Of a stretch of 64,000 bases of DNA, positions 9,026 through 52,005 are shown one piece after another. Position numbers and translations under genes: made by a program. The first letter of the stretch is position 1. Each line of letters opens with the position of its first letter. This DNA is from Glandiceps talaboti (taxonomy: Eukaryota > Hemichordata > Enteropneusta > Spengelidae). The stretch lies in the NCBI RefSeq assembly GCF_964340395.1, contig NC_135568.1, forward strand, positions 16,231,776 through 16,295,775, written 5' to 3'. Below the pieces are notes generated by a model. The model was given only the letters and a program-made list of their open reading frames with translations. It made no database searches and had not been told where the DNA came from.

Positions 9026-10086
9026 GAAGAGATTGAAAGGTGAGAAGATACACACATGTTTGGATTGATGATTTGAATATGATTTAAATATAATTTCTTG
9101 AAGTACACAGTATTAATAGTTTGGAATTATTTTGACAGCACAAGATAAGTATCAGATGAACTTAATCAACAGAAAAGTTTCAGACTTAGTCTCCACACTG
9201 AAAACCACAGGTTAGCATTCTCTAAACTTGTTTTACTCAAATTTTGTTTCCATTTTTCTTTTATTTAGAATTTTTTGTAGAATTATTGCTTTAAGTGCAA
9301 CATACCTATCGCTTTTCCAGAGGATGTTTTCCTAAAGAAAAGGTTTTTCGATCTCTGGTTTTTAGTGCGAGGTTGTGTACTGTACAAAGCTTTTATATTT
9401 GAAATAAAGTCTGACTGGCTGTTTTAAAGCCAGGTACTGTATGTGAATTGTGTGTGGAGTTTTTTGTTATGGGCTTTGTGTCTCTGGAAGCTTAATTTAC
9501 CTTTGAGCCATTCAAAATCGATGTTTCTACTTTGGTGGCCAAACATGTGCACTTTATCTCCATTTTAAATGTTTTGACAAATGCAAAATTAAAAAAATAA
9601 TTGTATGTTTCCGATAACATGGCTTCAGAGAATAGTGTAGGCAAGTCGGGATTTGATTTTTTGTTTTATCTTTACACAAATTTTAAATAATCATTTTATA
9701 AATTCTTTGAAGGTTGTTTGGCTTTGAACATGAGGTCATTGTACATGCTTTAGCATGTGTAAAAGTAAAATTAAATTGAAAACAATAACAAAAATAGTGA
9801 AAAAAAATAGTCCACATTGCAGCAAATATACCTTTAATTGTTTTTATTTTTGAAAAATATTGCTTCGAACCAAAAGCAAACGAAATGTTGGTCAGAATAT
9901 TCCTCCTGTTAGTCTTAAGTTTGATGAAATATGTACAGACATCGCTTGGGAAAGAAAACATCTGCATGAAAGTCAAGAAGACACAGAATTTCTTATTTTT
10001 TTGTAAAAATGTTTAAGGTCGGCAGCTTAAAGTGGCCATATGGATGGTGATTCGCTCTTTATTTTTGATTTTTTATTGATAAAACT
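9026..10086. other. Intergenic, no gene seen
   Basis: AT-rich sequence without a supportable exon. A short ATG-started frame at 9620 (MASENSVGKSGF) ends quickly and has no clear donor. Confidence 0.5.
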
Positions 10087-10320
10087 ATTTTATCATGGCT
10101 TCCTACTTGGAAAATCAAAGTGAAATAACATAGACTTAGTCTGTGTTTGTCACTCTATATATTGCAAAAAGCTAAACAATGTGTAAAATGTTTGTTATTG
10201 TACGTACAATAAAAACATTTTACACATTTATCAATTTTTTTGCAATGTATTGAGTTACAAACAAGGACTTTGCCTATGTTGTTTCACTTTGATTTTTCAA
10301 GTAGGAAGCCATGATAAAAT
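10087..10320. mobile_element. Near-full-length foldback element
   Basis: The whole 234 bp folds on itself. The left end 'attttatcatggcttcctac' pairs with the right end 'gtaggaagccatgataaaat', and the pairing continues to a centre at 'gtacgtac' near 10203. A truncated relative of the right arm lies at about 31580-31660. Noncoding. Confidence 0.8.
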
Positions 10321-11639
10321 TGTTTTAAAATTATGAATTAAAATTCCAAAATAAGTACCCAGTCTTCATCCATATATGGCTACTTTGAACTAGGTTCAGT
10401 CAGGTTATTGGAAACATGATATCCTTTTTGTGTAGTGGAAATAAATCTGCCTTTAAGTATATGCAGTTATTCAGAATTTATCAGCTAAAAGTGATTCCAT
10501 TTTCAAACTAAATTTCAACCAGATGAAGTAAAATTACTTATAATGCATCCATTCATAGTATCTCAATGAAAGAGCTAATTGCTGCTGACCCCTGACCTCC
10601 CAAAATATGTGTAGAAAAGTTGAGACTGATTTTATCTTCAGCTGTATTTCTCGTGTTCCGTGAACTGCCAATAAAATCCCTTTCACCAATCCATAATGCA
10701 TAATCTATGGTTATCACATTGTAGAATGACCAGGATATATAATCTACATTTTCTGTTCAAAGACAATAACTTGGCTTGTGTATGGTACAATTAGATGTTA
10801 TTCAGCCAAGGAAAGTACAAGTGAACTAAGGGGCCTTTGCCACTACAAGCTGCTAGATGAGTGGTGACAACCCTTAGGTCATGAGTATTTTCCAGCTGAA
10901 TGAAGAAATGTATTGGAGAATAACATAATTATACCAGTGCCAGTAATATCAAAGAAGAATCGGGGAAGTAACGGCAATTTTGAATGTTTTGACTCATATT
11001 TGGAACACAGTAGAACCAGTGACGTAGACACACATTGTCATGAAGTAGATGACCAGAGTATATATTCCATATATTTTGTTCAACTCATGCATGCATGGTA
11101 TATAAAACATATTCTTTGGTGGTAGATAAGTGAAGGTGGAATGCAATTCAACTCAAATTTCTCTTAAGACAACACCTCAACACATAAGACAGACCCTGAG
11201 ATCCTGCCTTTTAGTGAGAATCACTGGATATATAGCTTGCTCACACATTTGGAGAATGAATGGCACCATCCCATGGCCCTGTTGTCAGAAACAAAAGATT
11301 GTACAGTCTAACCACTGTGGGGCGCTGTTCAGAAGTTAACAAGGTGAGCTAGCTGGCCTGGATTGATGACAACTCGTCATGAAAATGTTGATGGCATACT
11401 CTTGGTAAGTTGAAATAGTTACATTTGTTTTGTTTTTCGTGTAATTTCCTATAACTTCTTTATTTCCTTCATGACTTACTGTTGTACGGCTGTATGCTTG
11501 CAATCCAGGATGAAAATTAGAACACTTACAATAGGGTGATTTTGTACTTACAGCAGTGGCAAGCTAAGTGTAACATTTGCTCTGTTTTATCTACATTGAT
11601 GTGACTGTGGTTTCTTTGTTTATCAAGTGTCAAAGTTGC
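10321..11639. other. Intergenic with a dispersed repeat segment
   Basis: No supported gene. Two adjacent short open frames (10913-11125 and 11130-11339, plus strand) lack recognisable domains. Part of the first ('agagtatatattccatatat' near 11050) resembles 30906-30960, so it belongs to an interspersed repeat rather than a gene. Confidence 0.5.
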
Positions 11640-11930
11640 TTTAATACATGCACAGAGCAAATACCACACTGAACTTGCCATGTTGTACTTCATATGTCTG
11701 TTTATGAAGTTCTAGAAGTTGCTTACATGCAGAGCAAACACCACACTTAACTTGCCATAGCTGTACTTCATATGTCTGTTTATAAAGTCATAGTTGCTTA
11801 CATGTACAGAGAAAACACCACACTTAACTTGCCATGGCTGTACTTCAAATGTCTGTTTATGCAGTCATAGAAGTTGCTTACATGCATAGAGCAAACACCA
11901 CACTGAACTTGCCATAGCTGTACTTCTAAC
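11640..11930. repeat. About 78-bp tandem repeat, four copies
   Basis: Four copies of a unit containing 'agagcaaacaccacact', 'aacttgccat' and 'tgtacttcatatgtctgttt' run head to tail. No coding frame is conserved. Confidence 0.8.
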
Positions 11931-13638: not shown

Positions 13639-16600
13639 CTAAAAAAATTTAACACCTTCATTGCCATCGAATGATATAAGTTCAGCTTTTCTTTGTGCTT
13701 CTAATGTCTTTAATGATCTCTTCAGTAACATCATATCAAGACCATGGAATTCTGGAAAAGAAAAATAATGCATTATTAGCATGTATGCCTTGCCACACTT
13801 CACTATCATTCGGTATCCACATTTGCACTCCTGAATCTGAGCCTAGCTACAGTTTGACAGAATACATGTATGCATTCCAAATCTGAGCCTAGCTATAGTT
13901 TGACAGAATACATGTATGCATGCCAAATCTGAGCCAAGCTACACTTTGACAGAATACATGTATACATGCCAAATCTGAGCCAAGCTACACTTTGACAGAA
14001 TCTGTATATACATTCCTAATCTGAGCCTAGCTACACTTTGACAGAATACATGTAGGCATTACAGTCTGGAAACTGGTCACGCATGTGTAGCAAATATACA
14101 AATTCAAACCGCATGGTGGATCGTTGCCGTAGCACAAAACATAATTTGCTGTATCTAACGTTTACACTAGTCTCAAAAACGTTATGTGAATTACTGTGAA
14201 TTACAATAATGCCTGAGAGAGATAAAGCATGCCATCTGATTGGTATATTGGTACTACATGCAGCACGAAAACTCCTCGAAGCCATATTATGCGACCACGT
14301 TTCACAATCTACGGTAAGAACCACTGGGTTGGGTACATCCTCACTTTTTTTCGACATATATTTTCGCCGTGTCAGTATCGTTACCAAATGTTGACACATA
14401 CCTAAAGGCAGGTAGCAAGATTTTGCTCCAATAACTGCAGATCCAATGAATTAGATTGCATTTGAAACAAAATGTTTTACATCATTCCTCAGTAAATACA
14501 ATGTAGTAACATTCAGATTATAATAAATGTATTGAAATGATATCAAACAGGTAAGACTACTAATTCATGTTAGGATGTACACTGTAGTGGTGGGTATGCA
14601 TGTACATTTGTATATACCATTATGATATGTATGTGTGCATGTATATGTATTTGTACATTGACATTAAATGTTACCTATGTACATGTGCTTAAAATAAAAG
14701 TCTTGTTGTTCTCCAAATGTACCATCTGTTGAATAAAAATTATCAATTTATTTAATTTATATAAATACAATACAGTGTATAAAATATTTACAGTACATCA
14801 AAATTACAAATATCTAAATTGTACCTGGTGTAGCTGGTTTTCATGTGAAGAGCTGTAGTATCTATGTACAACTGATTAAAGTTACAGACACTGTATATGT
14901 TTATAATGTAGATATATATTTATGATTGGACTACATGTAAAAATCACACTCTCACCATAAGTATACATTTTGTGTAATTCAATATTTCACTATAGTTAAC
15001 GAGCCATAATGCTGATTATCACTCAGTGACACCTACAAAACAATGGACAATTCCTCAATATGAGACGTACTAACTGACAAAACTAAAGAGCCATAGCGAT
15101 TATGGTTGTCTCTTGAAGAGCTGGAATGAGAATGTGTATCTACAAAAATTATTCTATTATTTGCAAACATAAATAAATATGAACGACCATTTCGTATGTA
15201 TATGAGTGCAGTGTTGTTTGTGTGTGTGAGTTGGATGAGGTAATATAGAAGGTGTGATTGGTTTGTTTGGGAAGAATTGACCTTTAGATAGACAGGGCCT
15301 ACTTCTTGACCAATGTCCCTCACATGTAGCAAAGGACTTAGAAATGTAACTGCATCGTGGACACCAAAGTTGAGATGTCCAGTACATGTATGTGATGAAT
15401 GCATTTGTGTTATGTAATCATCATTTATTGCATTACCATTCAGTTTGCAGTGTATTAACATCTGAAGAAATGCTGGACTGAGAGATTGCTCAGGAATGTG
15501 GGATGAAGAATGCCTGATTTGTGAGATAAAGTTTGATGAGAAGAGAATGGCAATCAGTGTACATGCATTACTCCCTGTCAGTGTAGGGTTATACAGTTAG
15601 ACTGGCAGAGATCCAAAGGGAGTGTCCATATATGTACATGTTTGTGAGAAGAAGGAATGGTATGTGATTCTGCATGCATTGTACGTACTCTTTTTTTCAT
15701 TGACTATGGACCTGTTTGTGAATGGTTGTCACCTGTGTGTAGTGGGTTGACCTCTCTGTGTTGTGGGTTGACCTCTCTGTGTGAGATGGGTTGACCTCTG
15801 TGTATGGTGGGTTGACCTCTCTGTGTGAGATGGGTTGACCTCTGTGTATGGTGGGTTGACACATCTGTGTTGTGGGTTGAACTCTCTGTGTTGTGGGTTG
15901 TCCCGTGTGTGTGGTGGGTTGACCTCTCTGTGTGAGATGGGTTGACCTCTGTGTATGGTGGGTTGACACATCTGTGTTGTGGGTTGAACTCTCTGTGTTG
16001 TGGGTTGTCCCGTGTGTGTGGTGGGTTGACCTCTCTGTGTGAGATGGGTTGACCTCTGTGTATGGTGGGTTGACCTCTCTGTGTTGTGGGTTGAACTCTC
16101 TGTGTTGTGGGTTGTCCCGTGTGTGTGGTGGGTTGACCTCTCTGTGTTGTGGGTTGACCTCTCTGTGTGAGATGGGTTGACCTCTGTGTATGGTGGGTTG
16201 ACCTCTCTGTGTTGTGGGTTGACCTCTCTGTGTTGTGGGTTGTCCCCTGTGTGTGGTGGGTTGATCTTTATGTGTGGTGGGTTGTCCCCTGTGTGTGGTG
16301 GGTTGATCTCTCTGTGTGGTGCTTTGTCTTTATTTTGTGTTTCTGTGTGCTGGACATGTGATTGTTGGATGTCTCTGTGACAGCTAGCCTGTAGTGTTCA
16401 TTTCCTTTTCTATGTTAGCTTCTATAATGTTTGCATATGTTGGCATGACTATTGGAGAGTAGTTCTTAATGTCATTTTGTATTTGTGAATGTGCACGACT
16501 GATAGTAGTTACTGTCTGCTGTATTTGTGAATGTGCACAACTGATAGTAGTTACTGTCTGCTGTATTTGTGAATGTGCACGACTGATAGTAGTTACTGTC

Positions 16601-19600
16601 TGCTGTATTTGTGAATGTGCACAACTGATAGAAGTTACTGTCTGCTGTATTTGTGAATGTGCACGACTGATAGTAGTTACTGTCTGCTGTATTTGTGAAT
16701 GTACACGACTGATAGAAGTTACTGTCTGCTGTATTTGTGAATGTGCACGACTGATAGAAGTTACTGTCTGCTGTATTTGTGAATGTGCACGACTGATAGT
16801 AGTTACTGTCTGCTGTATTTGTGAATGTACACGACTGATAGAAGTTACTGTCTGCTGTATTTGTGAATGTGCACGACTGATAGTAGTTACTGTCTGCTGT
16901 ATTTGTGAATGTACACGACTGATAGTAGTTACTGTCTGCTGTATTTGTGAATGTGCAAGACTGATAGTAGTTACTGTCTGCTGTATTTGTGAATGTGCAC
17001 GACTGATAGTAGTTACTGTCTGCTGTATCTGTGAATGTGCACGACTGTTAGTAGTTACTGTCTGCTGTATTTGTGAATGTGCACGACTGATAGAAGTTAC
17101 TGTCTGCTGTATTTGTGAATGTACACGACTGATAGTAGTTACTGTCTGCTGTATTTGTGAATGTACACGACTGATAGTAGTTACTGTCTGCTGTATCTGT
17201 GAATGTGCACGACTGTTAGTAGTTACTGTCTGCTGTATTTGTGAATGTGCACGACTGATAGTAGTTACTGTCTGCTGTATTTGTGAATGTACACGACTGA
17301 TAGTAGTTACTGTCTGCTGTATTTGTGAATGTGCACGACTGATAGTAGTTACTGTCAGCTGTGTTTGTGAATATGCATGACTGATAGTAGTTACTGTCTA
17401 CTGTATTTGTAGGTCGTACATTGTCATCAGCAACACTGTCAGAACCTTGGCTTATGCCATCATGAGGAACATCTGGATCTTCATTTGATTGTCCTATTAT
17501 TGTCTTATTCAATTGCCAATACTTCAACTTCTTGAAGAAGGAGTGGAGTACACGTTACGCAACCATTTCCTTGTACATAAGTATTAAAACAGACTTGATG
17601 ATAAGAATGCCCACATGGAAGAAGTACTATCTCTGCTTATGAGGATGTGTTTGGTTGCTGACTTCATAGTCACACCTGAAAGGCAGTTTGAGAAATAACA
17701 TAATTACCATAAGTTAAAAAGTACCGACAAATGTACTATTGCACTAAATGTATGTGCAGATTCAAAGTTGAATTATTCAGAACTAAACCATAGAAAGTCA
17801 AATTGATATACAGGATAAACATTTGTGCATGATTTTATGTACCATGTCAGATAAGCTATCAAGATACAATTTTTTTTAGCAATGTTCATTTCTCTGTGAA
17901 ATTGTAAAAGAGAATTTTAAAGGTCAGAATAAGTAATCACATGTTAATTCTAACTTACTGTAAACTCTGATTTGGTTCACTGTCAGGTTGTTTGGAGAGG
18001 AAATTGTAGCCCAATGGAAGATACCTGTTGTCGATGATGTGTGTTTAGGCTGTCGTAGTCGTGGTGATCACACTGTGAATATACTCTGTAAATGCAAAAG
18101 GTAAACAAGTCAGTACTACCAATAATGCACCTAATTTAGCAAAAATAGGGCATAATATTAGAAGTTGTTTCTATGTAATATCATTGGGAGTAGGGAGTTG
18201 TTGTTATACTCTGGATCGTATAGCTATCAAATGTTATTAAACAGTAAGTAACACAGGGAGGGATGTCAAATCTCACAGCATACAGCAAAGACTTGCACAA
18301 CAGCTTTTCACTGAAAGGAGACTTGATTTGTTTTTCCACCTGAACTCAAAATCCAAACTAATATTTCACTTGAAAACATAAATAATTAAAACTAGTAAGG
18401 TTCTCTAACACCTCCCGAGATAATTGACATGCTACTCATTGGATAATCGTCCATCACATGATTACTCTTAAGCACTATGATTGGACCCATACATTAAATT
18501 ATGTAAATCTGCCATACATGTAGTTAATATATTATATCACTAGACATTAAGTATGTTTGTCAAGACATACCCCAGTGACATCGCCACACCAAGGTGTAAT
18601 TCACATTTAAATATTAGCTTTTTAAACATCCAATTAGACTTCTTATATTAGGGTCAAACATACTAGTAGCCATATTGATGACACTTGAAGCTTTGTTAGT
18701 CCGGTCTGGTAGTCTCGGTGTTCTTATGACTGTATAATCATCGATTATCAACATTCCAATTTTTTCCTTCTGTCAATGTAAAAGATCAAAAAAATGTTTT
18801 GTTGATTATATTTCTTTAAATAGGAACAAAGATAATGCTGACTTTACTATGGCTGCCTTTTTAGGTTTTGTATGACCTCTCAAAAAGACAGCTATAAACT
18901 GGACAAGTGTGGCTCAAAAGAGGCCTCAGTGTAGCAATTGGTCCGCTTTTGTAACTACAAATATACTCACTACCCCTTGTAACTTGTGACCTAAACACAA
19001 GAAATATCAGAAAGTTGTTGAATATCAATCAAGAATTGTACTAACATGACTTCTTTTTTTTAAATATAGGTAGAAAGTGTAAAGAAGATGTTGAAGTCCT
19101 ACAGTTACCTGAAATAGCAAAGTGTATGCAACAACGAAGATGTCCGCTGGTGTTGTAAAACCTCCCTGGACACACTGTGTTGCTTTTTTGTAGAGATGGA
19201 CTTCTGTATTGTATGATACAGTCCTGGCGCATGTTGCTCTGAAAATGACAACATACGCTTGTAGTCCATCAAAGGTGTTGGATTCTCTTGAACTTTGAGG
19301 GACTGTTGAAGTTTGTCAACAAGGCTTGGGAAATCTGCAAAATACCCAAAAAGAGAGAATAATAAATTGACCACATCAATTTAATATACTCTGTTCATGG
19401 ACATTGACTAGCTACCTGACAGATGAAAGATTATACAGTTTGGCCACTAGGGGTGCTATTACAGATTTTTTCAAAATTCAAGTAGTTGCAGTGTGACATG
19501 TTTGAACTTGTCCTGTATCACCACCATCTCACTGTAAAACACAATAGTATTCTAGGCAAGATATTTTTTGTACATTTGATGTTATTTTTACAAACTGTTC

Positions 19601-22600
19601 TATCTTCTTTCGCTGATAAGTAGTTGATCTGACAATGTCTGCCATGATATAGAAAATTAGAATGTAAAAAAAAAATATATAAATATATATATAAGTTTTT
19701 ATTTTACAAGATTTTGCATTTATTATTTAGAATGTTTACATTAATGATGTATGCATGGAGTCTGAGTGTTGATATATTTCAACAGAAATTGCTACCTCGC
19801 ACTGTTACATCCTCACCTTGCAAAGTTATTTCATCTGGAGAGTTTGTTTCTCCAGAGTCTCTTGGTAGATGATCATCATCGTTGTCGTCAATAGAATTAA
19901 CTGTCGCCTAGAAAGATATCACGGTAAAATTGTAACATTCAGTGTATCTTGTGAACAATTTTGAAAGGTGCATATTGTTTTCAAAAAATGGAGAAATATT
20001 ACTTGAACGTTCTGACATGATAAATTACTTCTTAAAAATTAAATTTAGCATTTTTAATATTCAAGTTGATAAAGGTATAATTATTTTACTTGAATAATAT
20101 ATTTGTATTTTTATTCATTTATTTATTTATTTAATCATTTATTTATTTATATTTATAAATTGGTGTTCATAAATTTGTTCAGTTGAATCTTGACTTGTGT
20201 GCACTGTGTAACTTGTAAAATCAGATATTATTATCAGACTTACCTTTCGTTTCTGAGGAGGAACAAAAAGTGGATGGTGTAGAAATAGAGATTCCAAGCT
20301 GTCTACCATCTTTCTACATTTTCTGCAAATTTGCTTACCACCTATCTCAGGATGACAAAGCTCTTAAAAAAATGTCAACAAACGTGTTGGATGTGGTTGA
20401 AGTGACCCGGAGTGTAGCCTTGGTGATGGACAGACACACTTTGACTTTCTTCGTAATAAATCGTAGTGATGTCTACAAAGAAAAGTATTTCTCCCACCTC
20501 CAACAGCCAATGACATTGATTTACCAGCTCTAATAAATTTGTCTGGATTTTCAATGGAGCAATCAACTTTTGACCGTGTTTTTGACCACAAACTGCAAAC
20601 ACGATGTCATTTTTTTCAGTCTTCCCGCCAGGTTGACAATATCTGACTTCCCACGCCTATGTCATGTATATATGTAGTGGTACATTAGTAGTACACTATT
20701 TCCAACTACTAATGTTTTACAATGACTATATTTTATTGCTATTAGAGTGCTCTGTTTTGAAGTCTACAATGACATAGTTGATCTTGAATGTTCATTTCCG
20801 TTACTTTACGCATTAATTTGGAACAGTCAATATTCCAATCACACCAATCGCTTCCTCTTCCGTAGAATTTGCAACCTGAGATGTGCGCATGCGTGACCAA
20901 TGTCCAGACTGTACTGAGGCCATGTATACATTCCAAGTCTGAGCCTAGCTACACTTTGACAGAATCCATGTACACACTTCTAATCAGAGCCTAGCTACAC
21001 TGACAATCTACGTATGCATTTCTAATCTGAGCCTTGCCACATGTTGACAGAATCCATGTATGCATTCCAAATCTGAGGCTAGCTACACTTTGACAGAATA
21101 CATGTATGCATTCTTAATCTGAGCCTAGCTACACTGTGACTTAATCCATGATGTATGCATTCTTAATCGGCGCCTAGCCACACTGATAGAATCCATGTAT
21201 GCATTCCTAATCTGAGGCTAGCTACACTTTGACAGAATCCATGTATGCATTCTTAATCTGAGCCTAGCTACACTGTGACTTAATCCATGATGTATGCATT
21301 CTTAATCGGAGCCTAGCCACACTGATAGAATCCATGTATGCATTCCTAATCTCAGCCTGAAAGCTAAATTACCAATTTTACATAAAGGTCTTATCTAAGC
21401 TTTTCCCTTCTTACACAAATTCCCAGTATACATTTACAATGCCAACCTTGTCCTAGCTAACTGAGATTACTTGAACATTGTTTACCGTGTGTATAGGGGC
21501 ACCTTTGACAAAGTAACATATACATATAGTTACTTTGGAACAAATAAATTGGAAATGAATACAATGTTTTTGATCCATCTACATTGTATTACCTCAGATC
21601 TGAAAGACAATCTCGATATCGAGGCAAAGATTCATACTTTTTATACCAGAGGGAATTGAATAATCCATGATTTCAAGTTTGCGTCTTTTCCTGTTAAATG
21701 TCACTTATTTTCTTTCTGTTTTCTGTGATTGTCATATTGTTCGTATCTGTAGAGTAACTTTTTGGTAACTGCTGGGAAATCTTATTCTCAGGTTTTTAGA
21801 AAGTTATCACAATATCAGGTTTAATGTTTGTCACTATGTCTATTCGTACTTTTAATGAAGTTTAGAGGAAAAAGACTGTCAGTTTTTTAGTCAGACTGTA
21901 TTTATCGTGTAATCCTATCATTTCAATTGTTGTGTCAAATATGATTTTGTCTCAGAGTATGCTGTGGAATACTTGGTGTAAGAGGATTTTTTAAGCTCCT
22001 CGTTTGTATATATTTTTTTTGTTTCCCTACTTTTATTTAATTCTGTATATGGATATTTTTTGTCTGAAATAAACTTAAATAAATAAATAATAATAAGCAA
22101 CCTTGATTAGAGCAATACATTGGACAGACGGATCTAATCATGACATTTGTTTCCAATTTACCGTTCCAAAGTAACTGGAGTTTACTGTCCTATTGATTCT
22201 TGAAGGTATAAACATTGTATTTGCCAGAAACTGTAGTACAAGAGACACATACCATTCCAAAAATCTGTTATAAAATGAACTCAATATATTGACATACCTT
22301 CTTTGCTAGTGTCATCTCCACTTACTAATTCATATAGTGTACAAACTGTATTTAATAAACCATTTGTTGATGCCTGCAATTAATTATTAAGAATTTATTA
22401 CCAAATTGTCTACAATTACATAACACTTTTGCAGAGTGTAATAGTTAAATAATAACACATGATAGCAAGGGCAATATCATGATTTATTGCCTACCTGAGG
22501 GATGGTGGTCATGATTGTAATATTGATGTCCGAGCTGAAGGTGAGGGTATCATCATTATTACGGTCATGACCACTACACTGAGGATGGGTAATGAATCGT

Positions 22601-25600
22601 GATATTGGCGGTGGAATCGTGTGTTATTTATTTTATTACACCGAACAAAATCTGTGTCAAAGTTGGGTTGTCAAATATGAGCTGTGTTACCACTGAAAAT
22701 ATTACCATTTCAGAAAAGTGGATGCAATCAAGCAGTTGAAACAGTTTTGAAAGATTGATAAGCTTAGTACAGCACTTGCCTTATGAATTTTACTGTTCGT
22801 TTGTTGCAGCTGTCGATTATTTTGTGTGTTAGTTACTTTCCATAGGCTAGCTAAACATGGGGTTGTACTTGTGAATGAGCACTTATTATGCATAGAGTGT
22901 ACGCGAAGACATTCAATTTGATGTCAAAGGGCAACATTACAGCACGCGACAGGGCAACATCAAAACATACCTGGCAACAACAGCATTTTTTAGAATGTCA
23001 CGTGTTCCTGTTGTAGCCAATGACAGCATCTCACTCGAAATACAGTATACACTCGACAGTGTTGAATCACCTGTTGGTAAATGTGTAACTGTACACATAT
23101 AACGGTACAACAAATCCAAAAAATAGTGCCAATGGCGTTGTAGCAATGTCTCCACCAAATACCAAGGCAATCGGTCTGGCACTTTTTGAGTTTAAGTTGC
23201 CCACGAAAACACACACACACACACACACACAGATGGACAGACACTGCACCATGCCTATAGCACTATTGAACCTTATCAGTTCATTTTTGGGTCCACACTC
23301 TAAAATCAGCATCCCGTTGCAATCACAATTGCAACCACTTCTTGCAGATAAAACTGATTTCTAACCAACATGTACAATGTCTAAGTAAGTGTATAGTATT
23401 GCCCTTACTGACAAGACATGTGTTATTACTTAAACAATAAATTCTATTCCTACCCATTGATAAAGTAGTGATCCCCATTCCTCGGGTGTTCTCCACATTA
23501 TCAGACATCTTCGTCTACTTTTATCGGCCCATTCAAGGTTACCTGTGAGGAAAAGCAATGAAATGAATTCATACAACAATACAGCTAAATACATACACAT
23601 GACATACAATACACAAAATATATTTTCTTAGGGACGATCACAGTGCCACACAAGCTTAATAAGAAATTTTGTTCATGGGGGGGGGGTCTGGCATCAATGC
23701 AATAGCTAAACTTCATTCACTTCTAACCACATTTTGAAAAGTTCACTTCTGATGTGATATACAGTGCTGGGTTTCTGGTAGTATTTTAATGTGTTTACAA
23801 TCTTAGTGGTAATAGTGACTGCTACAATTTTCACCATGGTTTACATCATATATATATATAAATGTGTTGATATTGCACTTGTGAACCTTTGTTTAGGGGG
23901 AGGGGATTTTGTCCTATAAATGAATCAGATTGGAAACAACAAAGAACACACTGTTACCTTTCTTTCTAAGTTCTTCCAATACAATATGCACTGCATCTAC
24001 TGGTAGTTTTCCTGGAGATTAGATTTAAGGAAAGGGACAACTATAGACAAAAGTGTCACCAATAACACCTGATGTTTTCTGAAGAAACATACAACTACTA
24101 ACATCAGGCCGTGGACAAACAGAATATGTTAAAAAAAGGGAAAATAAACAAATGAATTGGATTAATAACTATTGTCACAGCATGTTGGAACAGAAGAGAC
24201 ATGGTTACATGGTTTGATAAGAACAGTTTTATGGCCTAATGCCAGGGGAACTGGCAATTTGTTTGTGAATTTGAACTATTATTTAAAGTGGCCATAAATC
24301 TGTTCTTATCAAATAATGGAATGTAATACAAGTCTCTGTACTTCCAACATGCTGCGCGAAGTGTTATTAACCCAATCCATTTGTTTACTTTCCCTGTTTG
24401 TAACAGGTTCCATTCATCCACGGTCTGACGTCAGTAATTGTATCATAAATATCTACTAGAGTTTAACAAGACTCTTCCCAAACCTCCCCATCATCGTATT
24501 ACTATGATTAATTCAGAAACACTGCACACTGCAATACCATACATCTAAATGGAGTCATAACAGTCCAATGGTTACAGTGGATGGCTTGGAATCCGTAGGT
24601 TGCAGGTTCAAGCCTCAATGCTGCAAATTTGTTTCTGAATGAACCATGACTGTGCCACAGTCAACCCAGCTGTATAATTGGGGATCTTGTAGGATAGATG
24701 TTGCAATGGGAAATCAGTAATCTTACAGTTGTATGAGTTTTACAGTTACGAAGGCTTTAATGGGCTACATGTGCTCTCCATAGAATTGTGGAAATAAAAA
24801 AGGCCATTGTGTTGCCACTTAAAAATACAATGTAGGTCCATGCCAAGGGTCAGTGTGCCCTCTAGCCAATTTCATGAGCCACTGATGAGGACAATTTCTA
24901 GTGACACACCAAAATTTGGCGTTCTCATATGTCTTACTATGTGGTGACTCACAAGAAATGTCAGTTTTTATCATTTTGACTCAGAACAACAAAATTTGGC
25001 TATAACTAGAGGGAACACTGCCAAGGGTATACTGTAGTAATAATAATAATAATTAAGTGCTTTGATCACAGTGAGGGAAAGTGCTATATAAAAATTAACA
25101 TTATTATTCTGAAATTGACTACCATGCATATCTGACTAATGAAAGTATGACTCTTATTAACACTTTACATAATGAATCATTTCATTGACTAGATTTGATG
25201 AAATACCACCAAACAGACAACGATATTTTGAAGGATACTGTCAATTTGAGTGTTGTGGAAGAGTGGACTGGACTGTGCTTCTGTTACATCTAGACTAAAT
25301 ATTTTCTTGTGCTTGTGATAGGAAAGTACAAGACTACACCATGCTTGAAGCTGCTTCTGCCGAGTCTCTAAGTTTGGCTGAAGTCTGGAAAAAAATAGAC
25401 AGTATATAGTGAATTATAAGATACATTATCATGTATATCAGCAGAGTTACACTGCATCAATAATTTACAAGTTGTCCTGATGTCCTGATGTATGTTTACA
25501 TTACTTAGTAGAAGCATTATTTGTAATATTATTTAAAATATTCAAATATTATCTAACCAACACAGACAAGATTACATGTCCCCTTAGTCCTGTTGTAGAC

Positions 25601-30547: not shown

Positions 30548-31001
30548 AGTATTATGGTTATCTATTATTACTACATGTATGTACATGTACATTTATGGAA
30601 ATCTTGGGCATGTACAATGTATTCCCCTGGTGATTGGTACAATGTACAAAAAAATGTGAAAAACACTAAGATTACCTTGTAACCCCTGTAAAACTAAACA
30701 AAACACAGTCATGTACATGTACACTACAAGTAGCAAAGGTACATGTACAACCTACAATGCATGTATTCAATTGTTAAAATACCAATAATTAAAACATACA
30801 TGACTATAACATGTTAATTAGAGGCTGATTTTATCCATAAGTATTACAGTACTTAACAGGTCGACATTGTGATTGCATTTGGGCACTGATTTGTGTGTGC
30901 AGGCCCAGAGTATTTATTCCATATATCTTGTTGAACCTAGCTCATTCATGGTATGTATAATCCCCTGTAACCTTTTTCCTGTTATTTTTATCCAGACCAA
31001 C

Positions 31002-34000
31002 ATGATCACATTATCCAAGAAACTAAGACAAGATGCCGAAAGAAAACAACCTAAGCCTCCAGTGGATGATGGCAAAAGGGTTTCAATACGTGATAAGTTA
31101 TTGGTCAAAGAAGTACAAGAATTAGAAGCTAATTTACCAGGTAAGTTTAGGTGTTTTACTAAGTGTCTAAGTAGGGGGAGAACTGGAAAAAGTAGGGGGG
31201 CGGAGGGGGGTGCCCCCCCCCCCCCCCCCCCCCCCATTGAGAAAATTTGGGGAAAACGTGGACAGTGGAGGCCAGTCAAAGTACCATGTAGAGATACAAA
31301 ATCATTAAATTATATCGTAAAATTATCATGTACATTTACATAACTCATTGCCATGGTAATCATTATGGTATGTATGAATAATACATTACTTTTATGTTGC
31401 ACAAAGCCTTTTCAAACTGACATGATGTAGTCTTCTGCTGAATGCCTCCTGTTTTAGCTATCTGTACAATAAGATTATAATGCAAACACAATGTAGACTA
31501 AATACATGCAATTGTTTTTCAAATCATTTAAACTTTTTGCATGATATTTTAGCAAGATATATACATTATTTAGTTTTTTCAAATTTATTGAGTTACAAAC
31601 ACAGACGAGGATTATGTTGCTTCACCTTATATTTTTTCAAATAGAAAAACATGCCGCAGTATACATGTAGTTGTTTTGTTAATGAAAGGTCCGACATAAA
31701 TAGTCATTTCTCACCCAGTGGCCACTCTATAAAGGGGAACACCACTCCAAGAAGTAAAAGGCATTTTCATAAACTATATGGTTTCTGGAGAGTCATTTCA
31801 TGATTTTACATCAGCTGCACTATGCCATTCCAGACTACAGACAGGAAATTGAGAAATCAGCACCCTCGCTCAAATTGGGGGTATCATCACCTCATAGTAC
31901 TGTTTCTTAAGAGCTTTGACCCTTGGTATTCTGTAGAAGTGTAAATCAGGGATATTTGCATATTGTTCAGACATCGAGACATTGAGACATGAGGAAAGCA
32001 GCAGTGCTTTATGATAACCCGAGTAATCTATACCATGTATACTCCCAAGGTACACTCAGACAGGAAGTAAAGTGCAACCATGGCAAATTTTGGAAAGGCC
32101 TAATTAATAGGTGATTTCAGAGAATAATCAAGTTGATCTTGTGCATGGTGATCAATGTGCCCTCTAATAATAGTCAAATTTTGTTGTTGTGAGTCAAAAT
32201 GAGAAAAACTGGCACTTCTTGTGAGTCACTACATACATAGTAAGAGGTTGGGGAACACCAAATTTGGTGTGTCACTAGGAATTGTGTGCGTCGGTGGCAC
32301 GTGAAATTGGCTTTAATAGAGGGCATACTGATGTGGTCTATACATTTAGGGCTACTGAGCTTGACTAACTTTGCATTGTTTTAGTAAAAACCATACCAAC
32401 AGAATATTCATAAACCGCTTAATTATATTTTAAGATAGGATTGTCTTCTATTTTATTTTACAGCAAGTTGTAAGGTACATTTTGATGATGAACACAAATT
32501 ACATTTATTTAAAATAACTATATCACCCGAAGAAGGCCATTGGAAAAGTGGAAAATTTCATTTTAAAGTAGAAGTACCTGAAGATTACAATATGGTGGTA
32601 AGTGTACAAATCATAGCATATGTACCAGAGATTACTTACATTGGTGCATGCACATACTAGTGGTATTTTTACTGCAGTGCAATACCGAACACATTATTAC
32701 ATACCTGTATGCAAGTGATAAGCAAATGAGGACACGATCATTTACATGTATCTGCAGTACATGAAAGCATGTGATCTCGTTATAGTGACTGCGACATTTT
32801 TATTGAAATTTGTGGTTTTGGATAAACAGAATAACAGAACCCCATGCCATGTGAGTTCCAGTGTGGAACTCAGGGGTACATTGTATTTGCACTCATGCTT
32901 GCAGTGTTTTCTGCTTCACTTTCACGAGTGTACTGCCACAGAGAACACTAAGCACATGTGCAAATACCCCAAGTATGCCATATTTGCACTCACATGTCAT
33001 GGGGTTCTGTCATATGTTTTTACTTAGTAATATGACAAAACCACATGATGTGTAAGTGCAAGTGTGATGTACATGTACTTGGGGCGTTTGAACTTTGTGC
33101 GTGTCATCCTGTTCCCTGCAGTCATACTTTCATGAGCGTTTGCCACTTAATGCAAATACCTAGAGTACCCACATTTGCGCTCATGCGGCATGGGATTCTG
33201 TTATTATTACATACGTTTATCTTGTAAAAATCATACTGTGCGATCACATGATTTCATGTACAAGGAAAGATAGCACACTCATTTGCATAACATTAATACA
33301 CGTATGCAATAATGTGTTTGGTACACAGTGTAAAGACAACTGGTATGGACATACATGTATGTGCACCAGCACAAGTCATTCAGTATTCAGTGCAATCCAG
33401 CAGGACACCAGAGTCACAATGGAAAACGTGTGTTGTTTGGTAGAATCAAACTGAACGATTCTTTTCTTATTTATAGTGTGGCAAATTTAATGAAACCAAG
33501 AGTGAGTGCAAACTACAGTCCCAATGGTTTAACCACTCTACCACTGACATTCCTACCTACATTTTTTTTGTACATGTACTACCAAATGCATATTGAAATA
33601 TTGAAAATTGAAAAATATATCTGAAAAAAGGCAATTTGCAAGTGTTACACACAATTGCTGTACAAACAGTCCTACAACATTAACAATCAGACCTGTGATA
33701 TTCTGACCATTTCACTCTGTGTACACCTTAAAAGGAGAGGGATATTCACAAAATGACAACATTTCATCTAAATATGGTAATGATATAGACTGTACATTGT
33801 ACATGTACAAGCATGATAGGCCAACAAATGTTTACATGGAAACATGAAAGATGGAACAAAATGCATGTAAAATAATGCTCCTGCATACACAAACATACAT
33901 AATTGAAACATAACACAGTGGTTAGGAGCATCGATGGTGTCTCCTGAGGTCAAATGTGTGCGTTTTCAAATTGTTCTCTTTTCAGCCGTTAACATGACTC

Positions 34001-39216: not shown

Positions 39217-39663
39217 TTATATATATGAAAGGTGTCCATGGTGTTGAGCATTCCTGAATACGACTGAGCATTGCCATATTTGGGCGTATGGTCGCCTTAT
39301 ATGGCTGAAGTTCTTTTCGCGTGAACGTGGATGGGTATCACCATATTTTGGTTGTATGATTGCCTTAAAAGGCAGAAGTTGTCGCACGTCATTTTGAGTC
39401 CGCAAGGGCCTACCATCGAAGTACATTTGGGAAGTAATTTCGTACTCTTGCACAGCGCTACCGTAAAAAAGTCGAAATCTGCCCCCCCCCCACTGGGTTT
39501 GACCTCGTCCTTCAGCACACTGTCCGCCTATATTGGGATTTACCCACTTCCCACCAGGAAAACGTTTGTGCTTTCCACTATACCGTGGAAGTACCTTCCA
39601 CAACAGTTCATTTAGACGTATACAATGTGCGCCCCCCCCCCCGTCCATGTCTCCCCCTCCCAC
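39217..39663 (-). other. GC-richer segment with a 148-codon open frame
   Basis: The frame passes through C tracts at 39480-39490 and 39632-39642. It has an internally repeated 90-95 bp segment ('ccatatttgggcgtatgg' and 'ccatattttggttgtatg'). No family is recognised. Its openness may be incidental, or it may be a decayed exon. Confidence 0.2.
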
Positions 39664-40431
39664 TGTATCAAAATGAGAACGTCCTCATCACAATTCCTTA
39701 GGCCTTGTTTGCTCCCCTCCCGCCACCAATCGAAGAAAATTGCGGTGTTACGTTAGAACAACTTTTTGCAAGAACAGCTTCGTTGACAGCACCTGATTAC
39801 AGCATGTACGGCATGTATATTTTCTATGTATTATGTGATTATTCATAGGTACAGGTACATACTAGTAAGCCATATACGGCAGATTTTATTAACTAAATCT
39901 ATTTACTGTCTCGCTAAAATTTCACGAACGTCGATCATCGCTTTTACATAAGCAACATGAATCTCGCCAAACTATATTTAATATTTCATCGATCTCAAAT
40001 TTATACAGTAACATTTGCATAGATATAACGATGAATGAATACATACATGAATGGCACGTGTCTATATAGTTACAACATTTTCTTGTGTGTATTTTTGTCA
40101 TTGGTAGTTTTAAACAATACATGCACATTGGATGGTATTAAAATAACACAAGGGTATATAGTAGTTACCCATATATATTCTTTGGAGTTATGTTAATTCA
40201 ACAATAATATTCAGTGTGGTTTTTCTAAGCTTTGTTTATCTTTCAACTTGTATGTATGTATGTATGTACGTACGTATGTGTGTGTGTCTGCGTCTGTGTG
40301 TGTATGCGGTAGATAAATTGAATAATGTTTGATTCTGCTGCTAAGTTATATAATGGAATTTCAAGTTTCGAAGGGGTGAGGATTATTAAGATGGTTTTAT
40401 TAAATTGAAACTAAGTACATTGAAATATGTG

Positions 40432-40514
40432 AGTGCGGTGGCCGAGCGGTTAAGGCGTTGGACTTAAGTTCCAATGGACAATAGTCCTCGTGGGTTCGAA
40501 TCCCACCCGCACTA
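40432..40514 (+). tRNA. tRNA-Leu (anticodon UAA)
   Basis: A class II tRNA. The acceptor stem is 'agtgcgg' (40432-40438) with 'ccgcact' (40507-40513) and discriminator A. The A box is 'tggccgagcgg'. The anticodon stem 'ttgga'/'tccaa' encloses the loop 'cttaagt' with TAA at 40465-40467. It has a long variable arm ('tggacaatagtcctcg') and the B box 'gggttcgaatccc'. There is no intron. A T run (40517-40521) follows as a pol III terminator. The overlapping minus-strand ORF with 'GIRTHE' is the well-known artefact of translating tRNA-Leu. Confidence 0.97.
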
Positions 40515-42718: not shown

Positions 42719-45700
42719 ATGCCTAAAAATACTCTACATGATCCAGTTTCTGGCCGCTTTATGCGCGGAACACCAAAGGCCCCTAAAAAGAACCGTGACC
42801 GTGTAAGTGAGAAGGAGGCCGAGAATATAATCAGTGTGTCTGATACGGCAGTATTGTCTGATGCTAGGATGTCTCCTCGTAGCATCCGTAGTAAGTATAT
42901 GACTTTTAAAAAACTGCACATTTTTAATTTTTCATTGCATATTGCTTTGTTGTAATTAATTTGTGATCTACTTTCAATATATTTTTTAAAGTACTTTTTG
43001 TGAAATTTTACAAGAAGTTGCTGTACAATTTTAGGTGATCTTTTGCCATCTATGGTCGTTCCTGAGGGAACCATTGCTGCTGTTCTGCCATCTATTAATC
43101 ATGAAGCACCCGATCAGTCTGACCGTCTTCTGCCAATGCGTCCAACGGTTTCTCCTTTGTTGATGAAGCAAGCTGACCCAGCTCTGCTACTTCAAGCTCT
43201 GCGTGAGCCTACTCCTGAGAACCTTGACACCGTGGATTTGAACGACGTTCTCCTCAACAGTAATAATAAAGGTAGGAATGTAATTTTTTTTTTTTATAAT
43301 AAAATAAATGTTGATGTCACAAAGATGAGAACAAAAGGGGATTATGATTGGAGAACTGAATATGCACGATTGACAACAGGAATTTGGCTGATGGAAGATT
43401 CTGAAGAAAATGCTAAATATAGTAAAGTTATTTTTATTTATGAATGTAAATTTATATTAAACACATTTGTTGACACCTTAGTTAATGAGCCCGTGTCTTA
43501 TATGATGCGCGAGTTTGCGCGGTCTCGTCGCGTCTCGTCCAGTAAATCTGAAATCTCGCGTGATGACATTAGCTCTCTGAACTGAAGTCTCACAACATGC
43601 TATAGCGGGGATTTTTGCAATACGTGACAGTAGAGACGTATTTTATACGTCTCTATTGAACATTATGCTATCCCATCGCATCAAACGCTCGGTTTGCGAT
43701 TCGGAAATCTCGCGTAGCCATCCAGGTCGGCCCTAAAGTCTCGCGTGACAAGTCGGATATTCAACCACACCACGTTCACGTACCGTGCCAAGGAATTACC
43801 GCTGTTCATCACCAAGTGACCTCTCTCGATATTCACATCCCAAGTATCAAGAATAAATATTCGGGAGTATTTATATGCCATGCAATTTATCCTAATGGAC
43901 TTTCAATATTTGTTTTCTGTCTTTTATTTTAACAAATATTTTAAAACTTTTTTTTTTGGAAAGTTTAAATTTTCGTTACATACACTTTTATAATAAATGC
44001 GAACAGTGCAATATTTTTTTAACGTTTAGACGACATCCCAGATAATGAATATGAGTGATAATTATTTAATGTTGCCAAAAATTTTTTTTATAAAACAAAG
44101 TAGCTGGTGCGTGGCTGGCAAAATACGAATGGGGGGGGGGGCTGACAAATGGAAGGAAGGGGAGGGGATGGCGGCGACATTGAAATGATGTAAAATTAGT
44201 AAAATAAAAAAAAAATTCAAATGAGCGATGATGCAAACAAGTGTGAATACAAAAATTAGTGAATAAAAGCCAGTGAATTAAAAAAAAGTTGGTGAAATAA
44301 AACACAATTCAAATAATTCCAATAAAGGTCAAACTTGACTTCGCAAGTAAAGTCCCAATCAAGTATGTTTACGAATATCTCTGACAACCGTTGGAAAATA
44401 AATTATCTGAGCCATAGTCTAGAATATGTTCCAAAACACAAAGGTATAAAAATGATACAAACTTAGAAAATTTGCTTTCACAACAATGACATTTATTTTT
44501 CTTATTATTCTTTTGTTTATTAAATATTCCAATTAGTAATTAAATTCCCGTCGCACTTTTTCAGCAGTTAGCACCGAGATGTTGTGAATCGATTAGGGTA
44601 GCTACATTCCCGATAATTTTTAGTTACGTTCGCGACCACGAAAAGTCAAATAAAAAGTCACAAACTTGATAAATTGGAGAAATGAATACATAATACGTAC
44701 ACCTTGTCTGTAAAGTATGCCGTGATAGGGCGCCCTCACACATCGGTCGGGAAAGGAGGCTGGTGAGGGCGGAGCGACACAACGTTACGTTCGCCCAGTG
44801 GTTCATTTAATTGACTAGTCTTGTGTATGGCACGAAAAGTTCGAGCAGAAACAAATAACACATAGACAATTCGGAAAACAAAACATAACTATCTGACCTA
44901 GACACTCACACATGAACTTTTTTTTTTTAAATTAAAAAAAAATTTACCTACCCCACCCATTTGAAAATCGAACGTAATCGGAACCACATAATTCTTTAGG
45001 CCTTAACTTGTTTATACTCAAGGTTTTATCAAATAACCGTAACGCGAATTCACACGGATCCATCCTACGAGATGTCAGTTTCCATAGTTTTCCCCAGTGA
45101 GTCGTCCACGCTATCCTTTGGTTCTTATTAATCATCGATCGATGACTGAGCTATCGTCTTTTCCATACTCTTGAAACGATAAACATAACCAGAATAGTAC
45201 AACGCTTCCTCAGCTAACATGGAAATAAGGAGTCTGAATACATGAAGAAAATAGCGCCAACAGTTGAAAACTTGATGTTTCTCCCTCGGGCAAAATGTCA
45301 CCTCGAATTCGTCGTGATCGGAAATTTTCTGACCTTCATGTTAACTACTGCCGATATTTCACCTGGCATGGAAGTTTGCCATCACAAGAAGTTACCCGGT
45401 TCTTTGCACGGTCATAACTAACCCGGTCTTGCCGAATGGTTTGAATCACGCACAACATACAACTATCCATTGACCATGGACTACTGCAGGATGATACACT
45501 GTGACCTGCCATATTTGATTCTGACTTTTCCGTTTCGCTTGTCCTCCCGAGTGTGGAAAGGCTGGGAACACACGTCAACACTTGCGAAAACAAAACCGTG
45601 AAATCCGTTTAGTTATAGCAAGAATTGTGCGAGTTAATTAATGATGGCTCTTTACTGCTCGTTTCTTGCAAGAAGTGACTGAGGCGCTCGAGCAAATGTT

Positions 45701-49215: not shown

Positions 49216-50517
49216 AACTATCTGACTGACTGACTGACTGACTGACTGACGTTTACCGATATCTAATTTCATAAACTTCCTCGAGAAGCATACAATCCAT
49301 TGCATCCTCGATCTAGATCTGTAAACGCATATCTTAAAAGCGTTCCCATAGCAACCTCTATCCTACCAAGTTCCCAATTCTACACCTGGGTTGACTCATA
49401 TACGTTGGAGAGAAAATTTCTCTCCAACGACTATGGTCGATTCTAGAAAATTATGTTTCAAATCATAGACGATGCTCTCTCCATATACCCTCCACCAACC
49501 TTGGTGGCGGGCTAAGGTCTCTTAACGTCTATAACTAACGAACTAATTGAGGGACAAAGCAAAGAGAGATTTATGTTCTAATGAAATGTTCATCATTTTA
49601 TAGAGAAAACAAAGGCACCTCACTGACTAGATCAGTCGCTGAGGGCGCTGTGTCTATTTTACGTCTACATCTATTCAAACATTTATGTTTAGGGGACATG
49701 AAAACACGTTTGTTAGAACTGACTGTTCAATACAACAGGATTCGTTATAAAGAGATCACCATGTCCCACCCTTAAGTTCAAACGGGTGAACAAATCATTT
49801 ATTTCCTGAAAATGTTTGCAATATTTTATACTATCATGGGGTATGATGTTAAGTCGATTGGTATTTTCAGTGGCTGATTGGTGGACTCTGCAAGCTACGA
49901 CAGCACGTATGAACGTTGCTGCCAAGTACTCAAGTACCAATACTGAGAACCGCATTAAGGAAATGGCAAAACAAGCTGATGATGAACATGAGAATCATCA
50001 AGCCAGGAGACCACGTCCACCTACAGGTAGACGACCAACCTATCCTCCAATGCGCGTGCCAACTGCTAAACCTAGCCAGGCTAGAATGCCACGTCCACCA
50101 GCACGAGATAGACCAGCCGTCACCCGTCACTACAGTCGCGGTGATTCACACTGCCGTGCCAATCGTACCCTGACCTTGCCAACCATCAACAACGTTCGTC
50201 CACAACCACCAAAGAGAGAACGTCCAAAGGGAGCCCATTACTCTCGCCGCAGTAGAATTCCTCACCTGCCACCACCCGAAAAGGCCCCTCATCTGGTCAG
50301 CCAAGCTCTCAGTGATTGCAGCGTCCACTCTGGTATTGAAATAGAAGGCCTTGAAGTTACCGGTAACAACATGACGAAGTTGGAAGTCTTCATCAACAAT
50401 GGTAACATCGAGAGTGACTGCTCATCTCCTGACTCTGACTACGCTCAGGCCGATCTGCCAAAGAAGCAGAAGAAAGGCAAGGGCGGAAGATCAAGCGCCA
50501 CCCACTACTACGACTAA
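42719..50517 (+). CDS. Unrecognised basic Pro/Arg-rich protein, five coding exons, 494 aa
   Basis: Coding exons are 42719-42890, 43035-43271, 47930-48013, 48670-49014 and 49871-50517, totalling 1,485 bp. All four internal introns are phase 1 and the middle three exons are each divisible by three. Successive segments start MPKNTLHDPVSGRFMRGTP; then PSMVVPEGTIAAVLPSINHE and LLLQALREPTPENLDTVDL; then KDEYPFGLEPGAPRTEF; then a short acidic run (SESESEPE) and Pro/Arg-rich text; then ADWWTLQATTARMNVAAKYS, about 100 residues of Arg/Pro-rich sequence, LEVFINNGNIESDC and a Lys-rich tail ending THYYD. There is no signal peptide, membrane segment or known domain. Most looks disordered and strongly basic, which could suit cytoskeletal or nucleic-acid binding, but that is speculation. 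Coding reality is supported by phase and composition. Confidence 0.8.
43482..43585 (+). CDS. Possible alternative last exon of the 494-aa gene
   Basis: After coding exon 2, an acceptor at 43480-43481 opens a phase-1 exon encoding NEPVSYMMREFARSRRVSSS and ending in a stop at 43585. Splicing 43271 to 43482 would give a short isoform of about 170 residues. The 210-bp intervening stretch (43272-43481) is also free of stops and divisible by three, so retention would insert 70 codons, including MRTKGDYDWRTEYARLTTGI. Which form is used cannot be told from sequence. Confidence 0.45.
43631..43655. other. Perfect 10-bp-arm hairpin
   Basis: 'tagagacgta', a five-base loop, then 'tacgtctcta', about 45 bp past the stop of the alternative last exon. 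Such a stem could form in the 3' end of the short transcript. Function unknown. Confidence 0.6.
43656..47929. other. Large intron of the 494-aa gene
   Basis: The intron between coding exons 2 and 3, about 4.6 kb. It holds homopolymer tracts near 44130 and 44910, a fragment of repeat family G at about 44850-44917 and a fuller copy at 47210-47474. CpG-containing unique sequence at 44560-47000 shows open minus frames (for example 45345-45593) but no recognisable domains or paired splice sites. Confidence 0.6.
47210..47474. repeat. Interspersed repeat family G, copy 2
   Basis: Closely matches 40715-40958. Its terminal part ('cctgaactagacactcacac') also matches 44895-44915 in the same orientation, so two direct copies of the end lie about 2.5 kb apart. 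Confidence 0.75.
49122..49250. repeat. (GATT)n followed by (CTGA)n microsatellite
   Basis: About 23 GATT units and then six or seven CTGA units, in the intron before the last exon of the 494-aa gene. Confidence 0.97.
49403..49429. other. Perfect 13-bp-arm inverted repeat
   Basis: 'cgttggagagaaa', one central base, then 'tttctctccaacg'. It lies in the last intron of the 494-aa gene. No enclosing element was found. Confidence 0.75.
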
Positions 50518-51425: not shown

Positions 51426-52005
51426 TCAACGTTTTTTTTTTTTTTTTTTTTTTATACAATTTTCGATACCTCAGCTATTTTACCATCTCAAGCAAGCAAT
51501 GTGCAATCGATACGGTCATTTTTTTCAACTTTTTTTTTTTCAATGTTCGACACCTCAGCTATTTTACCATCTCAAGCAAGCAATGTGCATCCGATACGGT
51601 CATTTTTTTCAACACTTTTTTTTTTTAATGTTCGACACCTCAGCTATTTTACCATCTCAAACAAGCAATGTGCATCCGATACGGTCATTTTTTTCAACAC
51701 TTTTTTTTTTTAATGTTCGACACCTCAGCTATTTTACCATCTCAAACAAGCAATGTGCATCCGATACGGTCATTTTTTTCAACACTTTTTTTTTTTAATG
51801 TTCGACACCTCAGCTATTTTACCATCTCAAACAAGCAATGTGCATCCGGTTCGGTCAATTTTTTTCAAACTTTTTTTTCTCTCCAAAGTTCAACATCTCA
51901 GCTATTACGTCACTTTAAACAATCATTGCACGCATACGGTACGGTCATTTCTTCAACATTTTTTTTTCAAAGTTCGCTATCTCAGTTCGCCATTACATAA
52001 TGCGC
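51426..52005. repeat. 85-bp tandem repeat, about six copies
   Basis: Units contain a T10-T12 run, 'aatgttcgacacctcagcta', 'ttttaccatctca' and 'gcaatgtgcatccgatacgg'. The four central copies are nearly identical at 85-bp spacing; the outer ones are diverged. Confidence 0.93.

Follow-up and report, generated by a model that had tools for sequence, protein, structure and literature searches.

A probable DNA transposon with terminal inverted repeats splits a minisatellite array in the last VPS25 intron of the hemichordate Glandiceps talaboti

The stretch of DNA analysed here, called the window below, comprises 64,000 nucleotides of Glandiceps talaboti (assembly GCF_964340395.1, contig NC_135568.1, positions 16,231,776 to 16,295,775) and carries the VPS25 gene on its minus strand, in six exons that were read by eye and whose spliced product matches the Pfam family ESCRT-II (PF05871) with an E-value of 9.9e-58. 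The last intron of this gene, intron 5, covers 8,546 bp (13752-22297) between the end of exon 5 at 22298 and the start of exon 6 at 13751, in agreement with the length of about 8.5 kb stated in an earlier note on this DNA, and the splice sites on either side of it are intact. The earlier note had also listed exon-like peptides in the intron and the same minisatellite, in the same orientation, on both sides of them. The peptides are indeed present, all within the intron and all on the minus strand, which is the strand of VPS25, and Tandem Repeats Finder (TRF) returned a 46-bp unit in the same orientation at 13834-14060 and at 20920-21358. The suggestion made there, that a large mobile element might have been inserted in the repeat, holds in a narrower form: inverted repeats lie at the inner edges of the arrays and set the limits at 14060-20913, not at those of the whole intron. 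With a probability of about 0.8, we interpret this segment as a DNA transposon of the cut-and-paste type, about 6.85 kb long and ending in terminal inverted repeats of 26 bp, which has inserted in, and split, the 46-bp array in VPS25 intron 5. The features that frame it are the following.

13639..13751, minus strand: VPS25 exon 6 (the last, with the stop), EFHGLD...VKFF; acceptor CAG/AATTCC; Pfam ESCRT-II on the spliced protein
13834..14060, plus strand: left half of the 46-bp minisatellite (TRF: 4.9 copies, 89% matches)
14060..14085, plus strand: left terminal inverted repeat, TACAGTCTGGAAACTGGTCACGCATG
14060..20913, no strand assigned: probable DNA transposon of about 6.85 kb, with terminal inverted repeats and a probable TA target duplication (14060-14061 and 20912-20913)
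20888..20913, minus strand: right terminal inverted repeat, TACAGTCTGGACATTGGTCACGCATG, read on the other strand from 20913 to 20888
20914..21358, plus strand: right half of the 46-bp minisatellite (TRF: 20920-21358, 9.6 copies, 78% matches)
22298..22373, minus strand: VPS25 exon 5, ASTNGLLNTVCTLYELVSGDDTSKE; donor AAG/GTATGT

The two terminal inverted repeats agree at 24 of 26 positions and form the best inverted repeat between 13000 and 23000, with an ungapped score of 20; the runner-up, an AT-rich run, reached 16. None of 300 first-order Markov sequences modelled on the same region attained a score of 20, the highest value being 17. All coding pieces lie between these repeats and on one strand. 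The left array ends in TRF at 14060, where the left inverted repeat begins, and the right array starts six bases past the right repeat, so that the gaps between array halves and repeat edges amount to 0 and 6 bases, respectively; the six bases (CTGAGG, 20914-20919) resemble the 46-bp unit by eye only. Since the inverted repeats sit at the inner edges of the arrays and are absent from the simulations, the segment is best explained as a DNA transposon with terminal inverted repeats, about 6.85 kb long, lying in a minisatellite array. It is smaller than VPS25 intron 5 and is a passenger within it. Neither the terminal inverted repeats nor the two internal minisatellites (15733-16328 and 16478-17410) had been recognized in the earlier note.

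Excision of 14062-20913, with one TA kept, unites the array halves, leaving about 20 bases where they meet unaligned to the consensus unit. The join reads GCATTA-CTGAGGC-CATG, by eye a shortened 46-bp unit, and is spanned in TRF by a single row of 2.0 copies with a period of 200 bp. Insertion into an already existing 46-bp array is the simplest reading. At both ends of the element a TA adjoins CAGTCTGG (14060-14061 and 20912-20913); a TA target duplication is therefore likely, and the TA could instead form the outermost bases of the inverted repeat. We considered, and dropped, a longer target duplication (CATGTAGGCAT on the left, CATGTATACAT on the right, with CTGAGGC between the latter and the right repeat), because the units of the array hold that word anyway. 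Further minisatellites occur in the window at 11645-11926 and 51447-51976, with units of 77 and 85 bp, and a 49-bp satellite of about 238 copies (93% matches) occupies 52358-64000 and continues past the window end. Because tandem arrays abound in the window, insertion into one of them need not imply target choice.

Between the inverted repeats the following pieces resemble parts of a gene, given here in minus-strand reading order.

20367..20606, minus strand: open stretch with FLCRHHYDLLRR, a possible N-terminal zinc-binding-like part; no family match; closed by an in-frame TAA at 20364-20366
20244..20363, minus strand: exon piece ELCHPEIGGKQICRKCRKMVD...QKRK; donor AAG/GTAAGT; no family match
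19817..19907, minus strand: acidic-linker exon; acceptor TAG/GCGACA, donor AAG/GTGAGG; in phase with its neighbours
19109..19334, minus strand: DFPSLVDKLQ exon; acceptor GCAG/ATTTCC, donor CAG/GTAACT; in phase with the two preceding exons
18617..18769, minus strand: LIIDDYTVIR exon piece, a possible start of a transposase core; no family match
17508..17636, minus strand: second half of a RING finger (CGHSYHQVCF...CVTC), exon LPCGHSYHQVCF; Pfam zf-C3HC4
15033..15574, minus strand: C-terminal exon; possible acceptor GACAG/GGAG; C12 and D153-T-H155 (numbering of the open reading frame, ORF) resemble a deubiquitinase of the tegument type (VTD)

The QICRKCRK open stretch was located at 20142-20363 on the minus strand, and the piece that runs to the GTAAGT donor at 20244 reads ELCHPEIGGKQICRKCRK...QKRK. 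Spliced in phase at GT-AG sites, the QKRK piece, the acidic linker and the DFPSLVDKLQ exon (20363-19109) give a frame of 145 open codons. That all the pieces belong to one gene is inferred, and so is the transposase identity of that gene. A reading of the plus strand around 17985-18104, noticed by eye in the raw sequence for its four cysteines, was dropped.

Among these pieces only the RING half had a significant Pfam match, whether they were searched alone or chained, and the earlier description of a RING-like exon is thus supported: the half scored 25.2 bits (1.5e-5) against zf-C3HC4, above the curated cut-off of 21, and the 12 other RING models listed for it all stayed under their own cut-offs. 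The later ligand positions of the RING match, and the open stretch lacks the first C-x2-C. When the half was joined to the stretch that precedes it, zf-C3HC4 fell to 22.7 bits and zf-RING_5 rose to 26.5 bits, still under its cut-off of 27.9, so the first half of the finger is not established. The 'zinc-binding' module and the 'transposase-like' domain proposed in the earlier note found no such backing, as neither matched any Pfam family, alone or in the joined chain. A search of PDB sequences with the 145-residue chain gave four matches with E-values from 0.2 to 7.7, none of them meaningful.

The C-terminal peptide FVDTHSH lies within an ORF of 187 codons on the minus strand (15036-15596; with the stop, 15596-15033), a length reached by one of 500 first-order Markov sequences, which makes a chance origin unlikely. 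Cys12 and Asp153-Thr-His155 stand in catalytic order with 141 residues from Cys to Asp, a hydrophobic run enters the D-x-H near the C-terminus, and a possible splice acceptor at 15574 is found just ahead of Cys12.

The element also contains minisatellites, 1.5 kb in total.

15733..16328, no strand assigned: 21/107-bp minisatellite inside the element (TRF)
16478..17410, no strand assigned: 42-bp minisatellite inside the element, 22.2 copies, 95%

The 42-bp array is open in one minus-strand frame nearly throughout (16387-17397, 337 codons), as expected from a unit of 14 codons; the idea that this array is a coding repeat was considered and dropped. No coding signal came from the 980 bases (17637-18616) that separate the LIIDDYTVIR piece from the RING half, where a transposase core would be expected: the longest open stretch has 54 codons, against a median of 63 in random sequences (n=500). 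If such a core once existed, it is gone or unrecognizable. Because of this gap, the TAA at 20364-20366 and the two internal minisatellites, this copy is probably dead.

Several observations weigh against a transposon with the gene content outlined above. No transposase family in Pfam matched any piece, though a defective copy may be without one and still belong to the transposons with terminal inverted repeats. A second copy of the element, looked for across the 64-kb window, was not found, so that mobility rests on one copy. TRF does not merge the array halves into one 46-bp row after excision; the TA duplication is not proven and the pre-insertion unit is irregular. The breaks between the pieces could in part be short introns instead of decay. 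As to the C-terminal ORF, Pfam searches up to E-values of 5 and 10 yielded only non-significant hits (bDLD1, 0.1; COX7B, 0.1), PDB sequences gave no match at E-values up to 10, and a single-sequence AlphaFold2 model had a pLDDT (predicted local distance difference test) of 35.1, too poor for use as support for a fold; the helix that it places over C12 and the strand that stops at D153 are given no weight.

Of the protease-like domain claimed in the earlier note, therefore, the Cys and Asp-x-His pattern is what stands, and Pfam, PDB sequences and the AlphaFold model add nothing meaningful to it. VTD deubiquitinases are known from herpesviral tegument proteins, Helitrons and other sources, and their Asp-x-His is described as invariable (PMC9741609; this and the other papers cited below are represented by the passages available to us). 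The two solved structures, DrT1-VTD2 and Wc-VTD1, have the catalytic residues Cys322/Asp451/His453 and Cys319/Asp440/His442, with Cys-Asp spacings of 129 and 121 (PMC9741609). The ORF of the element has the same residue order and a spacing of 141, somewhat above both. That it is not of the VTD type, its Cys and Asp-x-His having arisen by chance or belonging to another papain-like protease such as OTU or Ulp1, is a little more probable than even, given the blank searches, the unusable model and the shortness of the D-x-H tripeptide. Against this stand the hydrophobic run that leads into the D-x-H near the C-terminus, the Cys in VTD order and at roughly VTD spacing, and the possible splice acceptor directly before that Cys. 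On these grounds a VTD-type deubiquitinase seems possible, at slightly less than even odds; the ORF is not classed as a VTD member, because it matches no Pfam profile or PDB sequence.

It is unlikely that the copy is still intact and active, with all breaks being introns and much of the coding region residing in small exons. Some breaks do adjoin AG or GT dinucleotides, and the inverted repeats differ at just two of 26 positions. On the other side are the 980 bases with no open stretch above the random median, the in-frame TAA and the 1.5 kb of minisatellite within the element.

Very unlikely, too, is the reading in which the VPS25 intron harbours an ordinary nested host gene and the inverted repeat is a coincidence of a palindromic minisatellite. 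The introns and GT-AG splice sites of the pieces would fit such a gene, and the 46-bp unit does include the palindromic ACATGT, the arrays extending a weak inverted similarity beyond the 26 bp (arm length 51, 78% complementary). The 26 bp themselves are not minisatellite, however: the final unit match of the left array (14038-14061) shares only TA with the repeat, and an inverted repeat of this quality did not arise in the simulations. Moreover, no continuous frame runs through all the pieces, and their middle is devoid of coding signal. That the 46-bp minisatellite was part of the element, one array being carried at each end, rather than its target is most improbable, for although the same array stands on both sides in the same orientation, the two arrays lie outside the inverted repeats, are direct and not inverted, and meet once the element is removed, and a 24-base piece of the unit (three mismatches or fewer) has nine matches in the window, all of them within these two arrays.

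No element of this layout is described in the open-access literature that was searched. Ginger1 is similar in several respects, being a DNA transposon of 2.6-7 kb from invertebrates that has terminal inverted repeats, 0-4 introns and, in most families listed, a C-terminal OTU or Ulp1 protease domain; it differs by a Gypsy-like integrase, TGTNR ends and 4-bp duplications of CCGG or CCGT (PMC2836005). The ends here read (TA)CAGTCTGG and no integrase family of Pfam matched the pieces scanned, and for these reasons we do not place the element in Ginger1. VTD Helitrons and cnidarian VTD genes offer a transposon-linked papain-like protease with Cys ... Asp-x-His, and in several Cnidaria VTD domains are fused to other regions, some of them transposon-associated (PMC9741609). 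Helitrons encode a Rep-helicase protein, whereas here inverted repeats are present and no helicase family of Pfam matched the pieces scanned, which speaks against membership in that group; the VTD likeness is one of motif only. Mariner/Tc1 and PHISTA elements have TA target duplications, as the present one probably does, and the duplications amount to 0-4 bp in PHIS and 2 bp in PlavakaA (PMC10045372, PMC12730594); in contrast to Mariner/Tc1 and the PHIS relatives, no transposase family was matched here, and the gene layout is not comparable. The Ghost Mutator-like element (MULE), an invertebrate DNA transposon, has a RING zinc-finger ORF beside its transposase, but the RING is a separate ORF there and a half-finger inside one exon series here (PMC6446971). 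The earlier note had called a combination of zinc finger, transposase, RING and protease parts unusual. With OTU and Ulp1 in Ginger1, VTD in Helitrons and cnidarian genes, and a RING ORF in a MULE, it appears less so.

Scans of IMG/VR found no encoded relative of the pieces of 91, 187, 52 and 80 residues or of the chained 145 residues and no exact match to the inverted repeat, and GTDB genomes had no relative of the 187-residue piece; as the two collections cover viruses and prokaryotes and the scans catch close relatives only, these blanks say little on animals. The element is accordingly assigned to no superfamily. A Cys-rich N-terminus, an IIDDYT-like motif, a RING and a C-terminal protease-like domain are what we take to characterize DUF6589-like animal proteins; this likeness is unsupported here, as DUF6589 matched none of the pieces in Pfam and the name is absent from the open-access literature searched.

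The history of the transposon is probably as follows. It inserted, most likely at a TA, and split the pre-existing 46-bp array in VPS25 intron 5, with a multi-exon minus-strand gene as cargo that would encode an N-terminal part rich in Cys, an acidic linker, a centre with LIIDDYTVIR, a RING half-finger and, at the C-terminus, a domain whose Cys and Asp-x-His are arranged as in VTD deubiquitinases. The transposase of an intact ancestor would bind the 26-bp repeats, excise the element and insert it at a TA. The RING and protease-like parts may act on ubiquitin, perhaps on the transposase, which would be protected in this way, or on host repair factors; similar roles in the ubiquitin system have been suggested for OTU and Ulp1 domains (PMC2836005) and for VTD domains (PMC9741609). 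Later decay might have removed the transposase core, introduced the N-terminal stop and let minisatellites grow within. It seems doubtful that the copy is what remains of a superfamily of TA-target DNA transposons not yet described, in which one protein would join a RING-type ligase to a VTD deubiquitinase and so combine the two arms of ubiquitin control. As a genomic resident the element is of an ordinary kind; its cargo is moderately unusual and unprovable from one decayed copy.

Elsewhere in the window, two fold-back inverted repeats resemble miniature inverted-repeat transposable elements, one at 10064-10170 / 10237-10343 (arms of 107 nt, 83% complementary) and the second in a VPS25 intron at 24089-24203 / 24329-24443 (arms of 115 nt, 78% complementary). 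Rfam and ARAGORN agree on a tRNA-Leu with the anticodon TAA on the plus strand at 40432-40514. The open stretches at 43004-43582, 49810-50514 and 30873-31340 (plus strand) and at 39220-39684 (minus strand) matched no Pfam family at E-values up to 0.01.

The use of the ubiquitin system during transposition is an idea that has been raised for Ginger1 (PMC2836005) and for the VTDs of Helitrons (PMC9741609). If intact relatives of the present element exist, this idea could be tested for transposons on a protein that has both a RING and a deubiquitinase-like domain. The locus may also serve as an example of a gene block that lies between copies of the same minisatellite, a situation in which the breakpoints should be checked first for inverted repeats.

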